A stretch of DNA of 64,000 nucleotides from an uncultured Cohaesibacter sp. (GTDB taxonomy: Bacteria > Pseudomonadota > Alphaproteobacteria > Rhizobiales > Cohaesibacteraceae), in the NCBI RefSeq assembly GCF_963682185.1, contig NZ_OY821667.1, forward strand, positions 1,862,001 through 1,926,000, given 5' to 3'. Shown here piece by piece: positions 6,744 to 49,476 of the stretch; the stretch's first letter is position 1; every line of letters begins with the position of its first letter. Under the pieces are notes generated by a model. That model saw only the letters and a list, made by a program, of their open reading frames with translations, searched no databases and was not told the origin of the DNA. The position numbers and the translations under genes were made by a program.

Positions 6744-8762
6744 TCAAGCGACCAGCTCAGCGATATTCTTCATGATTTCGTTGATCTGGAAATTCTTCGG
6801 CGTGTAAACGGCCGCAACTCCATAGCCCTTGAGGATCTCCTCATCTGCAGGTGGGATGATCCCCCCCACCACCACCGGCACATCATCGAGCTCGGCTTCC
6901 TTCATCAGCTTCATGACATCGCCCACCAGTGCCAGATGCGAACCAGATAGAATGGACAGACCAACCACGTGAACACCCTCTTCCAGCGCGGTATTGACGA
7001 TCTGCTCCGGCGTCAGGCGAATGCCCTGATAGACAACTTCCATGCCAGCGTCCCGCGCCCGCACAGCAATCTGCTCCGCACCGTTGGAATGACCATCAAG
7101 GCCCGGCTTGCCGACCAGAATCTTGAGGCGTCGACCAAGGCTTTCCGAAGCCTTGTTCACCGCTTCACGCACATCGGAAACATCGTCCCCCTCCATGCGG
7201 GCGGATTTGCCAACGCCGGTTGGGGCTCGATATTCTCCAAAAACATCCCGCAACACGGCGGCCCATTCGCCGGTTGTCACGCCTGCCTTGGCGCAAGAAA
7301 TGGAAGGCTCCATGATGTTGGCCCCGGCCTCGGCCGCCTCGCGCAGAGCTGTCAGCGCATCTTCAACAGCAAGATCATCGCGCGCCTCGCGCCAAGCCTT
7401 GATCTTGTTAATGGCTTCCTCTTCAACAGCAGGATCAACGGTCAGGATTCCGCTATCTTCGCCGGATGAGAGCGGGGAAGGCTCGCTTTCCTGATATTTG
7501 TTGACGCCGACAAGAACCTGTTCACCACTCTCGATCCCCTCAAGGCGCTTGGCGTTTGATTCAACGAGCTTCTGCTTCATATAGCTTGATTCAATAGCCG
7601 AAATCGCACCGCCCATTTCTTCAATGCGGACCATTTCCTCACGGGCTTCAGCCTTGAGTGCCCTGACCTTGGCATCAATCGCGGATGACCCGTCAAACAG
7701 ATCCCCATATTCCAGAAGGTCTGTCTCAAAAGCCATGATCTGCTGCATCCTCAAAGACCATTGCTGATCCCACGGGCGAGGCAGACCCAACGCTTCGTTC
7801 CAGGCGGGGAGCTGAACCGCACGGGCGCGGGCATTCTTGGACAGCACCACCGCCAGCATCTCGATCAGAATACGGTAGACGTTATTTTCGGGCTGTTGTT
7901 CGGTAAGCCCCAACGAATTGACCTGCACTCCGTAGCGGAAGCGGCGATAGCGTTCCTCTTCCACCCCGTAACGCTCGTGGCAGATCTCATCCCACAATTC
8001 CGCAAAGGCGCGCATCTTGCAGATTTCGGTCACAAAGCGCATGCCCGCATTGACGAAAAAGGAAATGCGCCCCACAGCCTTTGGGAAGTCCTCTTCGCTG
8101 AGCACATCGCTTGCCTTGACGGCATCCAGCACGGCGATCGCCGTTGACAGCGCATAGGCCAACTCTTGCACCGGTGTCGCGCCCGCTTCCTGCAAATGAT
8201 AGGAGCAGACATTCATCGGGTTGAACTTGGGCATATGGCTGTAGGTAAAGCCGATGATATCGGTTGTCAGCTTCAGGGATGGCTTGGGCGGAAAGACATA
8301 GGTCCCCCGCGAGAGATATTCCTTGATAAGATCATTCTGTGTGGTGCCTGCAAGCTTGGCTCTGTCAGCCCCCTGCTCGTCAGCCACCGCGATATAGAGC
8401 GCCAGCAACCAGGCAGCCGTTGCATTGATCGTCATCGAGGTATTCATCTGCTCGAGCGGTATCTGATCGAACAGCTCCCGCATATCGCCGATATTGGCAA
8501 TAGGCACACCAACCTTGCCCACTTCACCACGCGCCAGCGGATGGTCCGGATCATAGCCCGTCTGGGTCGGCAGATCGAAGGCGACCGATAGACCCGTCTG
8601 CCCCTTGGACAGATTGTTTCTGTAAAGCGCATTGGATGCCTTGGCGGTTGAATGCCCCGCATAGGTGCGAAAGATCCATGGGCGGTCCTTTTCCTGACCG
8701 GACACGGATTTTTTGGCACCGGCAACTTCCATACTTTTGTTTATAGCTTCTGCGCCACTCAT
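6744..8762 (-). CDS. ecm: Ethylmalonyl-CoA mutase (coenzyme B12-dependent)
   Basis: It converts (2R)-ethylmalonyl-CoA to (2S)-methylsuccinyl-CoA in the ethylmalonyl-CoA pathway. The protein has 672 residues: an N-terminal TIM-barrel mutase domain containing the motifs RPWIFRTYAG and GLSVAFDLPTQTGYDPDH, and a C-terminal B12-binding domain with the DxHxxG-type motif GLDGHSNG near residue 555. The single-subunit length and the pairing with ccr fit Ecm rather than methylmalonyl-CoA mutase. The start at 8762 follows a strong GGGAGGAG ribosome-binding site, so the ATG nine codons upstream is unlikely. It is divergent from ccr across 361 bp. The adenosylcobalamin it needs could be made by the enzyme at 17568. 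Confidence 0.95.
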   Translation of the reverse strand: MSGAEAINKSMEVAGAKKSVSGQEKDRPWIFRTYAGHSTAKASNALYRNNLSKGQTGLSVAFDLPTQTGYDPDHPLARGEVGKVGVPIANIGDMRELFDQIPLEQMNTSMTINATAAWLLALYIAVADEQGADRAKLAGTTQNDLIKEYLSRGTYVFPPKPSLKLTTDIIGFTYSHMPKFNPMNVCSYHLQEAGATPVQELAYALSTAIAVLDAVKASDVLSEEDFPKAVGRISFFVNAGMRFVTEICKMRAFAELWDEICHERYGVEEERYRRFRYGVQVNSLGLTEQQPENNVYRILIEMLAVVLSKNARARAVQLPAWNEALGLPRPWDQQWSLRMQQIMAFETDLLEYGDLFDGSSAIDAKVRALKAEAREEMVRIEEMGGAISAIESSYMKQKLVESNAKRLEGIESGEQVLVGVNKYQESEPSPLSSGEDSGILTVDPAVEEEAINKIKAWREARDDLAVEDALTALREAAEAGANIMEPSISCAKAGVTTGEWAAVLRDVFGEYRAPTGVGKSARMEGDDVSDVREAVNKASESLGRRLKILVGKPGLDGHSNGAEQIAVRARDAGMEVVYQGIRLTPEQIVNTALEEGVHVVGLSILSGSHLALVGDVMKLMKEAELDDVPVVVGGIIPPADEEILKGYGVAAVYTPKNFQINEIMKNIAELVA

Positions 8763-9123
8763 TTTGCTCTCCTCCCGCAAAGGCCGCACGGGCTCCGCTC
8801 CTATTCAGCCCCCTTCCCTGTCAGGCCGCCGCCGAACGCATCCGGACAGCTCAATTGAGACAAGGTCTTACGGCTTTTCCCCTCTACTCTCCCGTTCTTC
8901 ATGCCCCTCAAGACAGCCTCAGGAGAGATTGCCTCTCTTCAAGCTCCGAGTGTCTCTTCGCACACGCAAAATGCAAATTGGCAATAAGACTTATATCTTC
9001 TGGCCCAATAATTTTGGATAATTTCGCAATCGCACCATAAAATGGGACCAAGCTCACCCATTTTTGCTGCACCGCAACATAACCAGAATCGCTGACAGTT
9101 CGTAATGATCGGGAGGAGCACCA
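8763..9123. promoter_or_regulatory. Divergent ecm-ccr promoter region
   Basis: This 361-bp region must drive both ecm (minus) and ccr (plus). No ORF in it looks real. It contains the conserved motif at 9060-9082 close to ccr. On the ecm side a looser TGC-rich stretch (GCAAAATGCAAATTGGCAAT, about 8966-8985) may be related, but I cannot align it convincingly. Confidence 0.6.
9060..9082 (+). promoter_or_regulatory. Candidate operator of ccr (TGCACCGCAACATA motif)
   Basis: The core TGCACCGCAACATA (9068-9081) is repeated with one difference at two places in front of mcd. It is preceded by ATTTTTGCTGC, which is also present in front of phaB. It ends 42 bases before the ccr start codon. The TGC-N3-GCA core resembles the TGC-rich sites described for PhaR. 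Which protein binds is inference. Confidence 0.6.
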
Positions 9124-10410
9124 ATGACCGAGGACTTGCTTGCCCAAGGCACAACCGGTGAGAAGAAAGATCTCTATGAAATCGGAGAAATTCCACCGCT
9201 GGGCCATGTGCCGAAAGAAATGTATGCCTGGGCCATCCGCCGCGAACGCCATGGGCCACCGGAAAAATCATTTCAGGTCGAAGTGGTGCCAACATGGGAA
9301 CTGGACAGCCACGAAGTGCTGGTTCTGAATATGGCCGCCGGTGTCAACTATAATGGCATCTGGGCAGGCCTTGGCGAACCGGTCTCCGTATTCGACGTGC
9401 ACAAACAGCCTTACCACATCGCAGGGTCTGACGCCTCCGGCATTGTATGGGCGGTTGGCAGCAAGGTCCGCAACTGGAAAGTCGGCGATGAAGTTGTCAT
9501 CCATTGCAATCAGGATGACGGCGACGACGAGGAGTGCAATGGTGGCGACCCGATGTTTTCGCCTACCCAGCGCATCTGGGGCTATGAGACGCCAGACGGC
9601 TCCTTTGCCCAATTCTCCAAGGTTCAGGCGCAGCAGCTGATGCCCCGCCCCAAGCATCTCACGTGGGAAGAAAGCGCCTGCTACGTGCTGACCCTCGCCA
9701 CCGCCTACCGAATGATGTTCGGCCATATGCCTCATGAGCTGAAGCCTGGTCAGAATGTGCTGATCTGGGGAGCTTCGGGTGGCTTGGGTGTCTTCGGCGT
9801 GCAGATTGCAGCGGCAGCAGGCGCCAATGCCATTGGCGTCATCTCCGATGAAAGCAAGCGCGATTTTGTCATGAACCTTGGAGCCAAGGGTGTCATCAAT
9901 CGCAAGGATTTCCATTGTTGGGGCCAGCTACCCAAGGTGAACTCCCCCGAATATGCCGACTGGTTCGCCGAAGTGCGCAAATTCGGCAAGGCCATCTGGG
10001 AATATACCGGCAAGGGCAAGAATGTCGATCTGGTCTTCGAGCATCCCGGTGAAGCCACGATGCCGGTCTCCACATTCGTCGTCAAGCGCGGCGGCATGGT
10101 GGTCATCTGTGCGGGAACCTCAGGCTTCAACCTGACCATGGATGCCCGCTATGTCTGGATGCATCAAAAGCGTGTTCAGGGCTCCCATTTTGCCCACCTA
10201 AAACAGGCCATGGCCGCCAATCAGATGGTGATCGACCGCCATATCGATCCTTGCATGTCAGATGTCTTCACATGGGAGCAAATCCCCAAGGCACATGAAT
10301 TGATGCTGAGCAATAAGCATCAACCGGGCAACATGTCCTGCATGGTCAATGCCACCAGAACGGGCCTCAAGACGCTGGAAGAAACCATTCTGGCCAGCCG
10401 CAGCTCCTAA
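9124..10410 (+). CDS. ccr: Crotonyl-CoA carboxylase/reductase
   Basis: The key enzyme of the ethylmalonyl-CoA pathway: it reduces crotonyl-CoA with NADPH while fixing CO2 to give ethylmalonyl-CoA. The 428-residue protein belongs to the medium-chain dehydrogenase superfamily. It has a GroES-like domain (NYNGIWAGLGEPV near 75-87), the nucleotide-binding motif WGASGGLGVFGVQ near 215-228, and the Ccr-typical segment FEHPGEATMPVSTFVVKRGG near 305-325. Length and motifs match true Ccr rather than generic quinone reductases. The start follows a GGGAGGAG site. A strong terminator follows, so it appears monocistronic. Confidence 0.97.
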   Translation: MTEDLLAQGTTGEKKDLYEIGEIPPLGHVPKEMYAWAIRRERHGPPEKSFQVEVVPTWELDSHEVLVLNMAAGVNYNGIWAGLGEPVSVFDVHKQPYHIAGSDASGIVWAVGSKVRNWKVGDEVVIHCNQDDGDDEECNGGDPMFSPTQRIWGYETPDGSFAQFSKVQAQQLMPRPKHLTWEESACYVLTLATAYRMMFGHMPHELKPGQNVLIWGASGGLGVFGVQIAAAAGANAIGVISDESKRDFVMNLGAKGVINRKDFHCWGQLPKVNSPEYADWFAEVRKFGKAIWEYTGKGKNVDLVFEHPGEATMPVSTFVVKRGGMVVICAGTSGFNLTMDARYVWMHQKRVQGSHFAHLKQAMAANQMVIDRHIDPCMSDVFTWEQIPKAHELMLSNKHQPGNMSCMVNATRTGLKTLEETILASRSS

Positions 10411-10442
10411 CCGGCAAGGCCAATCTGGAAAGCAGACAAACA

Positions 10443-10468
10443 AAAGCCGGGATATCCCGGCTTTTTCT
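10443..10468 (+). terminator. Terminator of ccr
   Basis: Stem AAAGCCGGGAT/ATCCCGGCTTT is a continuous palindrome, followed by TTTTTCTTT, 33 bases after the ccr stop codon. Confidence 0.85.
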
Positions 10469-10530
10469 TTCCCGCCAATTGTTCAACATCACCTTATGAG
10501 CGTGTGACCGCACACACGCCAGCTCGGGCC

Positions 10531-11454
10531 CTAATAATCATTGGCCGGTTCTTCCGGTGGTGGCATGGCCGTCTTTTCATCAGGATCAGGATAGGGCTTG
10601 GCATGCTTGCTGCGCTGAATACGGCGCCAGCGAATAATCCAGGCATTCACCTCGGCGCCATACAGAAAGATCATGGAGATGATCTGCAAAAAGATCAGCG
10701 TTGCCACAACACCGGCCAGGCCCGCATAAACGCGTGCATATTGGGCAAAATGCGACAGGTAGTAGGAATAGGCTTCGGCCGTAAACCACCACAAAACAAG
10801 CGTGGTCAAGGCTCCGGGCCAGAGATCGGCCCACTCGGTCGTACGCATGGGCAGCCAGCGATGACTCGCCACCAGAAACAGGGTCAAAAGCGGGATGGCG
10901 ATCCCCAACCGCACCACGTTGAAGGTGTACTGAAAATCCTCGATCCATGAAAAATGCGGCTTGAGCATATTCCATGCGATGGGCGCAAAGAACAGGGCCG
11001 AGGCAACAATGATCATCACGCCCGTCGCCCCGAAAATGGCCAGCAGCCCCATAGCCCTGCGCGACAGGATCGACCGGCGTTCATAATAGCCATAGGCTCG
11101 ATTAAGCCCTTCGCGCAGGCTCTCCACCAGTGACGTCAGAGTAACGAGGAAGACGACCAGAGAAATAGACAGCAGGCTACGGGTACGCTCGGCGATAACC
11201 GCATCCACATCAGGCTGCAAAATATCGGCAATTGCGTCCGGCAGCAGCAAGGTCAGCATATCCTGCAGCACCTTGCCCAGCGCATCGCCACCGATCCAGA
11301 CGGACACCCCCGTAAGCAGCAGCAAAAAGGGAAAGATTGACAGCAGCATGGAAAAGGCAATGTTGCTGGCGAGTGCAAAACCGTGATTGTCTGAAAAGCG
11401 CCAGAAAATCCGGACCGGCACGACTATCCATTCCCAAAGACGCATCATATCCAA
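10531..11454 (-). CDS. YihY/BrkB-family inner-membrane protein
   Basis: A 307-residue membrane protein of the YihY (formerly called RNase BN) family, with six hydrophobic segments. Family features are the N-terminal FSDNHGFALASNIAFSMLLS, the LREGLNRAYG motif after a long loop, and the C-terminal LYGAEVNA motif (near 270), where YxGAExN is the family signature. No enzymatic function is established for the family. The last 25 residues are charged and proline-rich, as in many relatives. Confidence 0.88.
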   Translation of the reverse strand: MDMMRLWEWIVVPVRIFWRFSDNHGFALASNIAFSMLLSIFPFLLLLTGVSVWIGGDALGKVLQDMLTLLLPDAIADILQPDVDAVIAERTRSLLSISLVVFLVTLTSLVESLREGLNRAYGYYERRSILSRRAMGLLAIFGATGVMIIVASALFFAPIAWNMLKPHFSWIEDFQYTFNVVRLGIAIPLLTLFLVASHRWLPMRTTEWADLWPGALTTLVLWWFTAEAYSYYLSHFAQYARVYAGLAGVVATLIFLQIISMIFLYGAEVNAWIIRWRRIQRSKHAKPYPDPDEKTAMPPPEEPANDY

Positions 11455-11791
11455 CTATCCGAATTCATCAGCCTTACGCAAAAACAGGAAACCACAAACA
11501 CAGCATGCTCCATGTGAAAGACAGAAAAGACAGACAGATATGGAGGACAGCACGCTTATCTGATTTTCAGAGAATGTTCCCGCCATGCGCACAGTCTTTA
11601 TAGGCTTTTGATATAAAAAAGCAATCCAGTCCGTTTGTCATTGGAACGCGCCCAAGCCCATATGACAATCAATGCATAACCTGTCGTTCCGGTTCCCATT
11701 GGACTTTTTCTTCCCAAGCAGATAAAGCTATAGCCTCTCACCTTTCCACCTTTTCTTCCGACCACCCCTCAAGAAAAGCCCGGGCAAAATC
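11455..11791. other. Intergenic region between divergent transporter genes
   Basis: No gene is evident in these 337 bp. It should hold the promoters of the YihY gene (minus) and the EamA transporter gene (plus). A spaced inverted repeat, TTGTCAT (11635-11641) and ATGACAA (11662-11668), is the only structure I noticed. Confidence 0.4.
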
Positions 11792-12676
11792 ATGACATCT
11801 CGCATCACCGGCATCTTGCCGATCCTCGCTCCTCTTTTGTTTGTTGTCCTCTGGTCAACGGGCTTTGTCGGATCGCGCATGGGCGCACCTTATTCCGAAC
11901 CCATGACATTCCTGTCACTGCGCTTTGGTTCGGTGCTCTTGCTTTTGCTGGCGATTTCGCTCATCCAGCGCGCGCGCTGGCCCAATCCGCGCCAAGGCTT
12001 TCATGCCTTTGTATCCGGTTTCCTGATTCATGGGGTTTATCTATCGGGCGTCTTCTGGGCGATTGATGATGGCATGCCTGCAGGCCTGTTCGCCCTGATG
12101 ACCGGATTGCAGCCCGTATTAACGGCCTTTTTCGCCCATCTTGTTCTGAAAGAGCAGATCACCAAAAACCACGCCCTTGGCTTTGTCCTCGGGCTTATAG
12201 GCATCTCCATGGTGCTGCTTCCGCGTCTCAGCGGCGGGGCTTTCTCTGTCACCCCGATGCAGATTCTCGTCTCCCTCGTGGCCGTCATCGCCATTTCCTT
12301 TGGAACGGTCTACCAGAAGCGCTTCGCTGCCAATCTGGACATCCGCACGGCCACTATCTGGCAATATATCGCCGCAGTGCTTTTATGCGGTGGCCTCAGC
12401 CTGCTAACGGAAAGCCAAACCATCATCTGGTCCGGTGAATTCGTCTTTGCGCTGGTTTGGCTCGTGCTGGTGCTGTCCATCGGCGCCATCTTCCTGCTGC
12501 TCTGGCTCATCGAGAAGGGGGCCGTGTCCAACACCGCATCGCTTTTTTATCTCGTACCCGCCGTGACCGCGACCATTTCCTTTCTGCTCTTTGGCGAGCC
12601 CATCACGCCCATGCAGGTGGCCGGCATGATCGTCACCGCCCTCGGCGTCATTCTGGCCAGCCGTAGCAAAGGCTGA
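11792..12676 (+). CDS. DMT-superfamily (EamA) transporter
   Basis: A 294-residue protein with ten predicted membrane helices in two EamA repeats. The first repeat carries LWSTGFVGSRMGAPYSEPMTFLSLRF near the N-terminus. The second begins near residue 150 and contains FLLLWLIEKGAVSNTASLFYLVPAVT. EamA proteins usually export metabolites or amino acids. No substrate can be assigned. It lies directly upstream of the mcd control region on the same strand but is separated from mcd by 246 bp, so they are probably separate units. Confidence 0.85.
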   Translation: MTSRITGILPILAPLLFVVLWSTGFVGSRMGAPYSEPMTFLSLRFGSVLLLLLAISLIQRARWPNPRQGFHAFVSGFLIHGVYLSGVFWAIDDGMPAGLFALMTGLQPVLTAFFAHLVLKEQITKNHALGFVLGLIGISMVLLPRLSGGAFSVTPMQILVSLVAVIAISFGTVYQKRFAANLDIRTATIWQYIAAVLLCGGLSLLTESQTIIWSGEFVFALVWLVLVLSIGAIFLLLWLIEKGAVSNTASLFYLVPAVTATISFLLFGEPITPMQVAGMIVTALGVILASRSKG

Positions 12677-12732
12677 CAGCAACGGCCCGTCGACCACCTC
12701 AAAGAGAACGGAAAATTCTGCGACAAAAGTCG

Positions 12733-12748
12733 TGTGCACCGCAACATA
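12733..12748 (+). promoter_or_regulatory. Distal copy of the TGCACYGCAACATA motif before mcd
   Basis: TGTGCACCGCAACATA matches the ccr site over 14 bases and the proximal mcd site over 15 of 16. It starts 80 bp upstream of the proximal copy and ends 174 bases before the mcd start. Confidence 0.6.
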
Positions 12749-12812
12749 TCATACGAACGTCTTTGATGCTTTACCCCTTTGGCTTATTGCAAATATAGCC
12801 CTCTCCCTTCAA

Positions 12813-12828
12813 TGTGCACTGCAACATA
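12813..12828 (+). promoter_or_regulatory. Proximal copy of the TGCACYGCAACATA motif before mcd
   Basis: TGTGCACTGCAACATA is the second copy in the mcd control region. It ends 94 bases before the start codon. Same orientation and nearly the same sequence as the copy at 12733. Confidence 0.6.
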
Positions 12829-12922
12829 AAAGCATTTGATTGCACCCGTCACCCTGTCTCAAGCCGTCATCTGGCGGAAAAGACCATCGACAGGCCAGAC
12901 ATTGCATCAGGGGGGAGAAACC

Positions 12923-14608
12923 ATGTCTTTGACCATCGAGACCCAGCCAATCGCCATTCCTGACACATTGATGTCCGACATGGACGCAACGGTCGCCACC
13001 TGCGAAAGCCTGCTCAAAGGCCTTGTCGATATCGTCTATGAAAAGGTGGCCGAGGATGGCCGCGTCAAGTCTGGCAAAGTGGAAGCAGAACAGCGCCTCA
13101 CCCACGGCCTTGCATGGTTTGCCACCTATGTGGAAGCGCTCAAGGAAATGCGCGGCTATAGCAAGACCATGAGTAATGAAGGGCGCTATGGCGAGATGGA
13201 ATCGCTCGTCACCCGCCTTGCCTTTGCTGAATATCTGGCACAGATTTTTGGCGGCATTCCCATGACGCAGGGCGAAATCGTGCGCCTTGCTGATTTTGGC
13301 GTGTCTGCCGAGACCATCGCAGCCGCCCAGAGCCCGGAAGTGGCCCGCCTTATGGCCGAAGGCAACACCAAGGAAATCCGCACCCGTCTTGTCGCTCTCA
13401 TGGAAACGGCAGAAGGGGCCGCCTCCTTTGGCGATGCGGGCCTTGACGAAACCATGGAAGCCTTCCGCGATGAAATGAACCGCTTTGCCGAAAGCGAAGT
13501 CACCCCGCATGCCCATGAGTGGCATCTCAAAGATGCCTATATTCCGATGGAAATCATCGAACAAATGGCCGAAATGGGTGTCTTTGGCCTGACCATTCCC
13601 GAAGACTATGGCGGATTGGGGCTTGGCAAGGAAAGCATGTGCGTGGTCTCCGAAGCCCTTTCGCGTGCCTTCATCGGCGTGGGCTCACTCGGCACCCGCT
13701 CCGAGATTGCCGCCGAGCTGATCCTGTGCGGCGGGACGCAAGAGCAAAAGGAAAAATGGCTGCCGATGATCGCCTCAGGCGAAATCTTGCCAACCGCTGT
13801 TTTCACCGAGCCGAACACCGGCTCCGACCTTGCCAGCCTGAAGACTCGCGCCACGCTGGACGGGGGCACCTACAAGGTGACCGGCAACAAGACATGGATC
13901 ACTCATCCTGTGCGCGCTGACCTGATGACCCTGATGGTCCGCACCAATCCGGCCGAAGCTGGCTACAAGGGCCTGTCCATGCTGCTGGCAGAAAAACCAC
14001 GCGGTGATGATGACAATCCCTTCCCTGCGCAAGGCATGGATGGCGGCGAAATCGAAGTACTCGGTTATCGCGGCATGAAGGAATATGACATTGCCTTCGA
14101 CAATTTCGAAGTCAGCAAGGAGAATTTGCTGGGCGGAGAAGAAGGGCAAGGCTTCAAGCAATTGATGCAGACCTTCGAGGCAGCCCGTATCCAGACAGCT
14201 GCCCGCGCCATTGGCGTGGCCCAGAATGCTCTGGATCTTGGCCTCCGATACGCGCAAGAGCGGGTGCAGTTCGGCAAATCGCTGATCAACTTCCCACGTG
14301 TCATCGACAAGCTGGCCATGATGGCCGCTGAAATCATGGTGGCCCGTCAGCTCACCTATTATTCAGCCCGTCAGAAAGACCACGACAAGCGCTGCGATCT
14401 GGAAGCAGGCATGGCCAAGCTGCTTGGCGCTCGCGTCGCTTGGGCCGCTGCTGACAATGCCTTGCAGATCCACGGCGGCAACGGCTTCGCGCTGGAATAT
14501 GCCATCTCCCGCGTCTTGTGCGATGCCCGCGTGCTCAATATTTTCGAAGGAGCAGGCGAAATTCAGGCACAGGTGATCGCGCGCCGCCTTCTGGACACGC
14601 GCAGTTAG
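12923..14608 (+). CDS. mcd: (2S)-Methylsuccinyl-CoA dehydrogenase
   Basis: An acyl-CoA dehydrogenase-family flavoenzyme that oxidises methylsuccinyl-CoA to mesaconyl-CoA in the ethylmalonyl-CoA pathway. At 561 residues it carries the N-terminal extension of about 160 residues that is typical of Mcd and absent from ordinary acyl-CoA dehydrogenases. The catalytic core shows FTEPNTGSDLASLKT and KTWITH, and the C-terminal LQIHGGNGFALEY and IFEGAGEIQAQVIARRLL. The start at 12923 follows AGGGGGGAGAAACC. Electrons should pass to ETF, encoded at 19246-20946. The two upstream copies of the motif shared with ccr suggest co-regulation. Confidence 0.93.
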   Translation: MSLTIETQPIAIPDTLMSDMDATVATCESLLKGLVDIVYEKVAEDGRVKSGKVEAEQRLTHGLAWFATYVEALKEMRGYSKTMSNEGRYGEMESLVTRLAFAEYLAQIFGGIPMTQGEIVRLADFGVSAETIAAAQSPEVARLMAEGNTKEIRTRLVALMETAEGAASFGDAGLDETMEAFRDEMNRFAESEVTPHAHEWHLKDAYIPMEIIEQMAEMGVFGLTIPEDYGGLGLGKESMCVVSEALSRAFIGVGSLGTRSEIAAELILCGGTQEQKEKWLPMIASGEILPTAVFTEPNTGSDLASLKTRATLDGGTYKVTGNKTWITHPVRADLMTLMVRTNPAEAGYKGLSMLLAEKPRGDDDNPFPAQGMDGGEIEVLGYRGMKEYDIAFDNFEVSKENLLGGEEGQGFKQLMQTFEAARIQTAARAIGVAQNALDLGLRYAQERVQFGKSLINFPRVIDKLAMMAAEIMVARQLTYYSARQKDHDKRCDLEAGMAKLLGARVAWAAADNALQIHGGNGFALEYAISRVLCDARVLNIFEGAGEIQAQVIARRLLDTRS

Positions 14609-47567: not shown

Positions 47568-48296
47568 TTAGCCATTTGCTATATATTGGCCGCCATTGAT
47601 CGTCATCACAGCCCCCGTGATAAAGGCCGCTTGCTCGGAGACCAGAAAGGCCACCATGGCGGCAATTTCCTCGGCCTGCCCCAACCGTCCAACCGGAATA
47701 TTGGAGACGATGCTTTCCAGCACTTTCTCGGGTACAGCCGACACCATGTCGGTATCGATATAGCCCGGACAGATGCAATTGACCGTAATCCCCTTGCGCG
47801 CAACCTCCTGCGCCAACGCCTTGGTAAAGCCGATCACGCCTGCCTTGGCCGCAGAATAGTTGGTCTGGCCCATCTGCCCCTTCTGGCCATTGATGGACGA
47901 GATATTGATGATCCGCCCATGCCCACGTGCACGCATTTCGTCGATGATCGGCTTGGTCATGTAATACATCGAGTTCAGATTGACATTGATGGCTTCATGC
48001 CACTGCTCAAATTCCATCTTGTGCAACATGCTGTCGCGCGTGATACCTGCATTATTGACCACAATATCGATGATACCGAGATCTTCCTCGACCTGTTTCA
48101 GGCCCGCCTTGCAGGCTTCGAAATCCCCCACATCCCATTTATAGGCCTTGATGCCCGTGCGCTCCGTGAAGCCCCGGGCACTGTCATCATTGCCAGCATA
48201 GTTGGCTGCAACAAAAAACCCGGCCTCTTTCAGGGCAATGCAGATCGCCTCGCCAATACCCCTTGTTCCACCAGTTACAACTGCAACCTTGGACAT
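47568..48296 (-). CDS. phaB: Acetoacetyl-CoA reductase
   Basis: A 242-residue SDR enzyme that reduces acetoacetyl-CoA to (R)-3-hydroxybutyryl-CoA for PHB synthesis. The cofactor motif is TGGTRGIGEAI at 8-18, NNAGITRD follows, and the catalytic Ser/Tyr/Lys lie in NISSINGQKGQMGQTNYSAAK. The GQMGQTNY context is typical of PhaB rather than FabG. The usual upstream thiolase gene phaA is not next to it. Instead phaR is divergent at 48901, after a 604-bp region with a TGC-rich site. Confidence 0.92.
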   Translation of the reverse strand: MSKVAVVTGGTRGIGEAICIALKEAGFFVAANYAGNDDSARGFTERTGIKAYKWDVGDFEACKAGLKQVEEDLGIIDIVVNNAGITRDSMLHKMEFEQWHEAINVNLNSMYYMTKPIIDEMRARGHGRIINISSINGQKGQMGQTNYSAAKAGVIGFTKALAQEVARKGITVNCICPGYIDTDMVSAVPEKVLESIVSNIPVGRLGQAEEIAAMVAFLVSEQAAFITGAVMTINGGQYIANG

Positions 48297-48900
48297 GCTC
48301 TCTCTCCCCTCATGAAAACCATTGCCCGTCCCCCTCTCCGGATCGGGCTGGTTCCTCCACCTTGAATGTTTGTCGCTGCCGCGCCCTCGTCACCTCGGGC
48401 AGACCAGCAAGCAGTCAGACGTCCTGGTCCGTTTTGTGCCTTTTGAATGTCGTCCGGCCCGCCTTCATTGCGCATCGCAGTTTACATCTCGGCGCATCTT
48501 TTCACCTTGTGTGCACCGGCCAACCGAATGGACGCAGGATGCCATTTATCCCGAGCCCGAAATGCGCTCGATATTCTTGCGGCGAAACAGCAACTTCGGG
48601 TACCTCATCCCTTATTGCGCCGCAGCAAAAATCTCAAATTCGCCAGCTCCCGAGAAGAATTTGGCCTCTTGAAAATCGTTTAGAAAGTGGCAAGGAGTCA
48701 ATTACGCCATGGGCCTAGTCTGAAAGACCTAGAAAATAGACATGCCCTTTTACTGGTCATTCCTATTTTTTTGCACTTGCTAAAAGGATAGGTCAGAGGC
48801 TCTTGGCAATGCAGCATGAACGAATTAAGTTGGAGGACAACAGCAGGCGCTTTTCAAGCAGCTGCCACCAGTGTCCATTCCGTCACGAGGCCTTGCATAA
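48297..48900. promoter_or_regulatory. Divergent phaB-phaR control region
   Basis: No ORF in these 604 bp looks real; codon pattern and overlapping frames do not support one. The region must hold the promoters of phaB (minus) and phaR (plus). It contains the TGC-N3-GCAATA site at 48611-48632 and several other TGC/GCA steps closer to phaR, such as TGCAGCA near 48813. Its length is unusual and could hide a small RNA. Confidence 0.55.
48611..48632 (-). promoter_or_regulatory. TGC-N3-GCAATA site before phaB
   Basis: On the minus strand ATTTTTGCTGCGGCGCAATAAG shares the 11-base lead ATTTTTGCTGC and the following CGCAA with the ccr site at 9060-9082. It lies about 315 bp upstream of the phaB start. 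The TGC-N3-GCA core is like the sites reported for PhaR. Confidence 0.5.
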
Positions 48901-49476
48901 ATGACAAAACAAGCGGATCAAACTGTCATCAAGAAATATGCGAACCGCAGATTGTACAACACCGGCACCAGCACCTATGTCACGCTGGAAGATCTGTCCG
49001 ACATGGTAAAGGCGCAGGAGGATTTCGTCGTCTATGATGCCAAGAGCGGAGAGGATATAACCCGCTCTGTTCTCACGCAGATCATCTTCGAACATGAGAA
49101 TAAGGGCCAGCATCTGCTGCCCATCGATTTTCTACGCCAGCTGATCCGTTTCTATGGCGACTCGATGCAACATCTGGTGCCAAGTTATCTTGATTTCACC
49201 ATGCAGAATCTGGCCAAGGACCAGGAAAATCTGCGCAAGCAGATGGCCGACTCCTTCGGCGACTCAGCCATGGAAGCCATGGAGGAGCAGGTTCGCCGGA
49301 ATTCCGAAATTTTTGAAAATGCCATGAAGATGTTCATGCCCTTCGGCTCGGCACCCCAGAAGCCAAAGAAGGAGCCCGAACCCAGCAAACCGAGCGAGCT
49401 GGAACAACTAAAGGACCAGATCGCCGATATGCAGAAAACGATTTCCGAGTTGGTTGTTCGCAGCAAGAAAGACTAG
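48901..49476 (+). CDS. phaR: Polyhydroxyalkanoate synthesis repressor PhaR
   Basis: A 191-residue regulator that senses PHB and represses PHB and phasin genes. The N-terminal DNA-binding domain carries IKKYANRRLYNTGTSTYVTLEDLSDMV at about 10-36, the hallmark of PhaR, followed by the PHB-accumulation regulatory domain with ITRSVLTQIIFEHENKGQHLLPIDFLRQLI. The C-terminal third is charged with a coiled coil (LEQLKDQIADMQKTISELV). It is divergent from phaB. In some alphaproteobacteria PhaR also affects central carbon genes. Confidence 0.95.
   Translation: MTKQADQTVIKKYANRRLYNTGTSTYVTLEDLSDMVKAQEDFVVYDAKSGEDITRSVLTQIIFEHENKGQHLLPIDFLRQLIRFYGDSMQHLVPSYLDFTMQNLAKDQENLRKQMADSFGDSAMEAMEEQVRRNSEIFENAMKMFMPFGSAPQKPKKEPEPSKPSELEQLKDQIADMQKTISELVVRSKKD

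Follow-up and report, generated by a model that had tools for sequence, protein, structure and literature searches.

Within a 64,000-nucleotide stretch of the genome of an uncultured Cohaesibacter sp. (contig NZ_OY821667.1, positions 1,862,001 to 1,926,000, hereafter the window), a short motif is repeated in front of ccr, which encodes crotonyl-CoA carboxylase/reductase, and mcd, which probably encodes methylsuccinyl-CoA dehydrogenase, both of the ethylmalonyl-CoA pathway. Judged by its likeness to published sites, the motif is most likely a landing site of PhaR, the sensor of polyhydroxybutyrate (PHB), and it stands before at least four genes of this pathway. The conserved unit is TGC-RNY-GCA with A/T-rich arms, and not the 14-mer TGCACYGCAACATA described in an earlier note on this DNA. 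The motif is probably an operator for PhaR (AniA), through which the ethylmalonyl-CoA genes would be repressed until PHB granules titrate the protein off.

The repeated motif and its conserved core

Exact copies of TGCACYGCAACATA are present at 9068-9081 before ccr and at 12735-12748 and 12815-12828 before mcd, all on the + strand, reproducing the three copies in one orientation that the earlier note had reported, and the mcd pair, which extends to the 16-mers TGTGCACYGCAACATA at 12733-12748 and 12813-12828, is offset by the 80 bp that it had given. The whole-genome search that it had proposed was run on both strands of the genome to which the window belongs (G000, a single contig of 5,391,032 bases) and returned these three copies, one at ccr and two at mcd, with no other exact match, against about 0.08 copies expected per 5.39 Mb by simple arithmetic with equal base frequencies, in agreement with its view that the repeat exceeds chance. 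Of three more copies with one mismatch, one is inside an open reading frame (ORF) that resembles glnA, the second separates a GntR-like ORF from the 3' end of an ORF resembling a serine dehydratase gene, and the third is inside another ORF; these gene names were assigned by eye. Looser forms occur at chance level in the window, with 42 bare TGC-N3-GCA sites against 43.3 expected, and 12 copies of TGCACYGCAACATA with three mismatches allowed against 10.3 expected.

The DNA 5' of ccr and of mcd was compared in 17 Cohaesibacter genomes each. TGC-NNN-GCA is found in all 17 ccr promoters, 46 to 56 bp 5' of the start codon, and its centre varies by species yet is RNY (purine-any-pyrimidine) in every one. 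The six half-site columns of the ccr alignment hold 2.0 bits, the 33 flanking columns hold a mean of 0.36 bits, and the ACATA portion of the 14-mer drifts (ATATG, GCATT, CCATA, ACAAT), with TGC and GCA invariant. Fixed half-sites in drifting surroundings resemble the footprint left by a protein recognising both halves of a palindrome. The TGC-N3-GCA core noticed earlier therefore stands, being found in every genus promoter examined for the four genes discussed below, with a centre narrowed to RNY and with A/T-rich arms. The 14-mer was rejected as a unique motif, since it is exact in two of the 17 genus ccr promoters (G000 and G002) and TGC-RNY-GCA is the conserved part. The 80-bp spacing at mcd was likewise rejected as a signature of DNA looping because it is not constant in the genus, being kept in nine of 17 genomes and replaced in the other eight by 66 bp (two genomes), by 24 or 23 bp, or by a single box (four genomes).

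The RNY centre is enriched in the control regions, occurring in 154 of 180 upstream TGC-N3-GCA sites versus 27 of 123 in flanking DNA, and RNY sites reach 2.59 per kb in upstream regions, compared with 0.10 per kb across 264 kb of flanking sequence at loci of the same kinds. When the 64 palindromic half-sites with an RNY centre were ranked, TGC came top: among 117 promoters outside the genus, 52 carry it and 13 carry the runner-up. Among spacings of 0 to 8, N3 was best (57/117); TGC-N1-GCA (36/117) and TGC-N6-GCA (35/117) were raised too, which is tentatively ascribed to TGCTGC left arms.

Scanning the genome with TGCRNYGCARCAW gave 35 matches but 34 different cores, since the ccr site is matched on either strand, and by the authors' own reading about 14 of these fall outside convincing genes, two or three cases being doubtful. 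The sites include those at ccr and mcd (two) and in the phasin and phaR regions, together with a box 66 bp before the mesaconyl-CoA hydratase gene mch (PF19315, 64.8 bits versus a cut-off of 26.5) and a pair before a gene of the HpcH/HpaI family, the second box lying 17 bp on. The latter gene most likely encodes a malyl-CoA/beta-methylmalyl-CoA lyase (mcl), although its NCBIfam matches fall below cut-off and the family models do not settle its identity; the in-frame stops reported in lyase matches were natural protein ends in the five genus cases checked. These boxes agree with the earlier prediction of sites before other ethylmalonyl-CoA genes. In G000 they are selected, because it was the scan that led to both genes, and their conservation in relatives is unselected.

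Conservation was counted as TGC-RNY-GCA within 300 bp upstream, with dinucleotide shuffles as control. Inside the genus the box is present at ccr in 17/17, mcd in 17/17, mch in 18/18 and the lyase gene in 17/17 promoters, against shuffle means of 0.75, 1.19, 0.64 and 0.96. The set outside the genus comprised one genome of the same family and single representatives of other families, and here ccr has the box in 21/30, mcd in 14/29 and the lyase gene in 14/28 promoters (shuffle means 1.50, 1.26 and 1.11). Left out of these counts were 13 of the 43 outside-genus genomes that lack a strong ccr match, as well as G051 for mcd (best match 38% identity), G023, G050 and G054 for the lyase (34-42% identity matches) and the second ccr copy of G020; G004 (64% complete) was counted for mch only. 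In a further set, the best 80 of 596 named ccr loci, the box was found at 32, a count that serves as a second look only, as the set partly holds the same records as the main comparison.

PhaR as the probable binder

The PhaR consensus of Bradyrhizobium diazoefficiens, TGCRNYGCASMA, comes from footprints and promoter alignment (PMC6201568), and that of Sinorhizobium meliloti, WNWD2NYGCRNYGCRNH2WNW, is accompanied by examples bound in electrophoretic mobility shift assays, such as ppdK ATTTGGTGCACTGCAACAAAA (PMC12542648). The ccr site and both mcd sites, each containing the exact motif on the + strand, fit the shared core TGC-RNY-GCA (TGCRNYGCASMA / YGCRNYGCR) and have A/T-rich arms. The ccr box TTTTGCTGCACCGCAACATAA (9062..9082, core 9068-9076), in which TGC and GCA are invariant in 17/17 genus genomes, and the downstream mcd box TCAATGTGCACTGCAACATAA (12809..12829, core 12815-12823) have no mismatch to the S. 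meliloti 21-mer, and the upstream mcd box (12729..12749, core 12735-12743) departs from it at two positions of the outer left arm. The upstream box is missing from some members of the genus, all 17 of which keep at least one box at mcd. Other sites in the genus have 0 to 3 mismatches to the 21-mer, and three lyase-upstream sites have 5. Where the Bradyrhizobium consensus has S, at position 10, the sites here have A, and so do the TGCGCTGCAACA listed for that species and S. meliloti ppdK TGCACTGCAACA.

The proposed binder is encoded in the window by phaR (48901..49476, + strand; PF07879, PF05233), which scores 152.1 bits against a cut-off of 109.45 for the PhaR equivalog TIGR01848; the genome has no second PF07879 match. 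PF07879 is present in 51 of the 61 genomes examined; a PDB search with PhaR gave no match at E 0.01. The sole PF09361 phasin gene found in the genome has TGCGATGCA 47 bp 5' of its ATG and TGCGTTGCG another 27 bp upstream, a pair as would be expected of a classical PhaR target. Between phaR and the divergent phaB, encoding acetoacetyl-CoA reductase (47568..48296, - strand; TIGR01829, 361.5 bits versus 302.1), the genome scan placed a box at 48610..48630 (+ strand, core TGCGCCGCA at 48616), and a weaker YGC-RNY-GCR site, CGCATCGCA, lies at 48471..48479 (+ strand). Within about 600 bp 5' of phaR, TGC-RNY-GCA occurs in 11 of 17 genus genomes, or 15 of 17 if YGC-RNY-GCR is allowed, at varying positions. 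Only two genomes carry the four pathway genes with no detected PhaR, and in these the box is found in one of eight promoters, one of the two genomes having it at none of the four genes.

PhaR binding to the boxes is thus well supported by sequence. The conservation of the boxes also supports the earlier suggestion that the motif is a shared operator, at least as a putative one, and among the candidate binders named there the match to published PhaR sites singles PhaR out. The result would be a set of new targets for a known regulator, and is solid as comparative evidence.

Proposed control and alternative explanations

PhaR is reported to move from DNA to PHB granules, which frees phasin and depolymerase genes (PMC12542648). 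In the mechanism proposed here, PhaR would sit on TGC-RNY-GCA before ccr, mcd, mch, the malyl-CoA-lyase-type gene and the phasin gene, and free PhaR would block their transcription when PHB is scarce. The formation of PHB granules would capture PhaR and lower its free amount, releasing the phasin and ethylmalonyl-CoA genes jointly as storage fills, so that acetyl-CoA and hydroxybutyryl-CoA exceeding storage uptake could be drawn through crotonyl-CoA into C4 acids.

The direction of control is suggested by the placing of the boxes. A predicted sigma-70-type promoter, TGGATA-17-TAAAAT (9015..9043, + strand; 9/12 in a consensus scan, with 1 found versus 0.1 in shuffles), lies 5' of the ccr box, and an ATAAA-like element recurs in most of the aligned genus sequences. 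The core of the box begins 25 bp 3' of the predicted -10 element and by estimate would cover roughly +18 to +26, a blocking position. The mcd boxes flank a TTGGCTTATTGCAAA-like stretch, present in most genus genomes, and with it the likely promoter, in the way that paired boxes enclose the -35 element at S. meliloti phaP1 and phaP2 (PMC12542648). These placements favour repression, relieved by PHB.

A wider version, which might equally hold or fail, is that PHB granules turn on much of the ethylmalonyl-CoA route by titrating PhaR, with ccr, mcd and malyl-CoA lyase as targets and mch added in Cohaesibacter, and that this wiring is old in the order, since of the 28 genomes outside the genus that encode PhaR, 24 have at least one of the four genes preceded by a box, and 17 have two or more. 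Some Rhodobacter and Methylorubrum relatives show no such wiring at ccr, possibly because it disappeared there or never arose.

Several observations weigh against repression by PhaR across the pathway. Four of the 28 PhaR-bearing genomes have the box at none of the four genes, 48 of the best 80 named ccr loci are without it (including those of Cereibacter johrii, Methylorubrum populi and Methylobacterium trifolii), and G035 (88% complete), in which no PhaR was found, has a ccr box. Outside the genus the mch box is near chance (3/30, shuffle mean 1.30) compared with 18/18 inside, indicating that it is mainly a Cohaesibacter feature and that the ccr, mcd and lyase boxes are the wider ones. The flanks of the mch box are also conserved within the genus (mean 1.07 bits), making its footprint less telling, and Fisher p-values are inflated by related sequences, as they carry no correction for kinship. 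On the promoter side, the single sigma-70-like promoter found at ccr is a consensus match only, the same scan recognised none at mcd, and the ccr box core is 306 bp from the ATG of the divergent gene, probably ecm, with no other YGC-RNY-GCR between that gene and ccr. When a light stress lowered PhaR in Rhodospirillum rubrum on acetate (0.44, p 0.01), Ccr did not rise significantly (0.64, p 0.14; PMC7109303), and PhaR activates genes as well in other species (PMC12542648, PMC6201568).

Because such PhaR-activated targets exist, reported for B. diazoefficiens (PMC6201568) and in modules 4-6 of S. meliloti (PMC12542648), the main rival is that PhaR binds the same boxes as an activator, so that low PHB and free PhaR turn assimilation on, and PHB turns it off. 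This is considered unlikely, as the S. meliloti motif lies upstream of only seven PhaR-activated genes and is clearly enriched in the repressed module 1 (PMC12542648), and as the ccr box, 3' of its predicted promoter, occupies a repressor's place.

Much less probable is that the boxes are bound by another acetate or propionate regulator, such as the single ScfR protein (RamB/PccR-like) or a CcrR-like TetR protein, even though the genome has one ScfR gene and a TetR-type gene with a box about 90 bp upstream. The PccR site consists of TTTGCAAA pairs, unlike TGC-RNY-GCA, and by eye the ccr and mcd sites contain no TTTGCAAA; the RNY centre and arms fit PhaR sites and recur at the phasin gene. Least credible of all, and very improbable, is a promoter element or small mRNA hairpin with no protein operator, which would draw on the resemblance by eye of CATA/ACATAA to a -10 element and on the capacity of TGYTGC-N3-GCARCA to pair as RNA, also judged by eye. 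At ccr, however, it is the ACATA part that varies and TGC and GCA that are constant, one mcd box lies 5' of the conserved TTGGCTTATTGCAAA stretch, and an RNY loop would be needless in a hairpin.

Neighbouring features and comparison with known systems

The genes that would be controlled by PhaR in the window are ccr (9124..10410, + strand; TIGR01751, 612 bits versus a cut-off of 378.55) and a gene for a 561-residue protein (12923..14608, + strand) with acyl-CoA dehydrogenase domains at 176-557 and a long N-terminal part, taken here as probable mcd from its pathway context. Among named sequences the Ccr protein is closest to that of Cohaesibacter haloalkalitolerans, at 93% identity, in keeping with an origin of the window in this genus. 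Genus mcd matches in one genome form two overlapping pieces (G016:C21:152460-154140), a possible frameshift or assembly error. Divergent from ccr is a gene with MM_CoA_mutase and B12-binding domains (6744..8762, - strand), presumably ecm, encoding ethylmalonyl-CoA mutase, a name suggested by its neighbourhood. Between ecm and ccr, the block GCACACGCAAAATGCAAATTGGCAATAAGACTTATATC (8960-8997) is strongly conserved in 17 Cohaesibacter genomes, most of all in AAATTGGCAATAAGA, and could represent the promoter of ecm or the site of an activator. Within this block (8977-8988) and between the mcd boxes (12783-12794), CTTATTGCMAAW is present in opposite orientations; it was rejected as a shared pathway element given its other four locations among six genome copies, three within ORFs and one before an unrelated ORF. 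CTGC-N3-GCAG, reported for Rhodobacter sphaeroides, was also set aside, its two window copies being at chance level and away from these genes.

Elsewhere in the genome, PhaR-like boxes lie about 90 bp upstream of a TetR-like regulator ORF (L122 1567; G000:C1:4397166) and about 110 bp upstream of a response-regulator-like ORF (L124 1501; G000:C1:5342296), and paired boxes that are apparently intergenic occur at L070 1230/1501 and L100 1505/1621. Two further sites (L005 1150-1162 and 1501-1514; G000:C1:4550569, 4550920) bracket the gap between the GntR-like ORF and the end of the serine-dehydratase-like ORF. As S. meliloti has a PhaR-repressed small RNA, MmgR, a small RNA in this gap would be worth a look.

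PHB synthesis and the ethylmalonyl-CoA pathway have their first steps in common, and the PhaR boxes conserved before ccr, mcd and the lyase gene provide a testable link between them. They suggest a common switch for the storage and the assimilation of carbon and offer candidate sites for steering carbon towards bioplastic or C4 acids. In rhizobia PhaR is an established regulator of central carbon metabolism (PMC12542648, PMC6201568). Both phaA and phaB, common to the two routes, are reported to be up in a phaR mutant of Methylorubrum extorquens (Korotkova 2002, as cited in PMC6520949), so that a PhaR link to pathway entry is already in print; in a newer transcriptome of this species a PhaA homologue was up and the phaA/phaB effect was not seen (PMC6520949). 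No PhaR box before ccr, mcd, mch or mcl is named in the main texts of the open-licence PMC papers searched, although regulon databases may list such sites. How the pathway is switched on is partly known, from an activator in Methylobacterium (by its title) and effects of RamB in Paracoccus (PMC10370305).

Among known systems, the PhaR/AniA regulon of S. meliloti has a regulator of the same family and a palindromic 21-bp site to which the ccr and downstream mcd sites conform exactly, along with paired boxes at some promoters (phaP1, phaP2) and targets in central carbon metabolism; it differs in its targets, which are phasins, depolymerases, exopolysaccharide genes, ppdK, gltA, zwf and others (PMC12542648), and the terms ethylmalonyl, ccr and crotonyl are absent from the main text of that paper. 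B. diazoefficiens shares the consensus TGCRNYGCASMA, with TGCGCTGCAACA as its nirK site, and a PhaR that both represses and activates (PMC6201568, PMC10888616); the main text of PMC6201568 contains none of the terms crotonyl, ethylmalonyl, methylsuccinyl, mesaconyl and malyl-CoA, and that of PMC10888616 does not contain ethylmalonyl. In M. extorquens AM1, PhaR is tied to acetyl-CoA flux, which is altered in phaR mutants (PMC6520949, in whose main text mesaconyl, meaA, ibd2, malyl-CoA and crotonyl-CoA are absent), whereas ccr of Methylorubrum populi has no PhaR box in the 300 bp upstream. RamB/PccR (ScfR family) resembles the proposed system in controlling acetyl-CoA assimilation genes and in its link to ethylmalonyl-CoA intermediates, but belongs to another protein family and has a site of two near-identical boxes with an 18-bp spacer at the glyoxylate operon (PMC10370305). 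The TetR protein CcrR of Methylobacterium extorquens, an activator of an ethylmalonyl-CoA gene according to a reference title in PMC10370305, likewise regulates the pathway.

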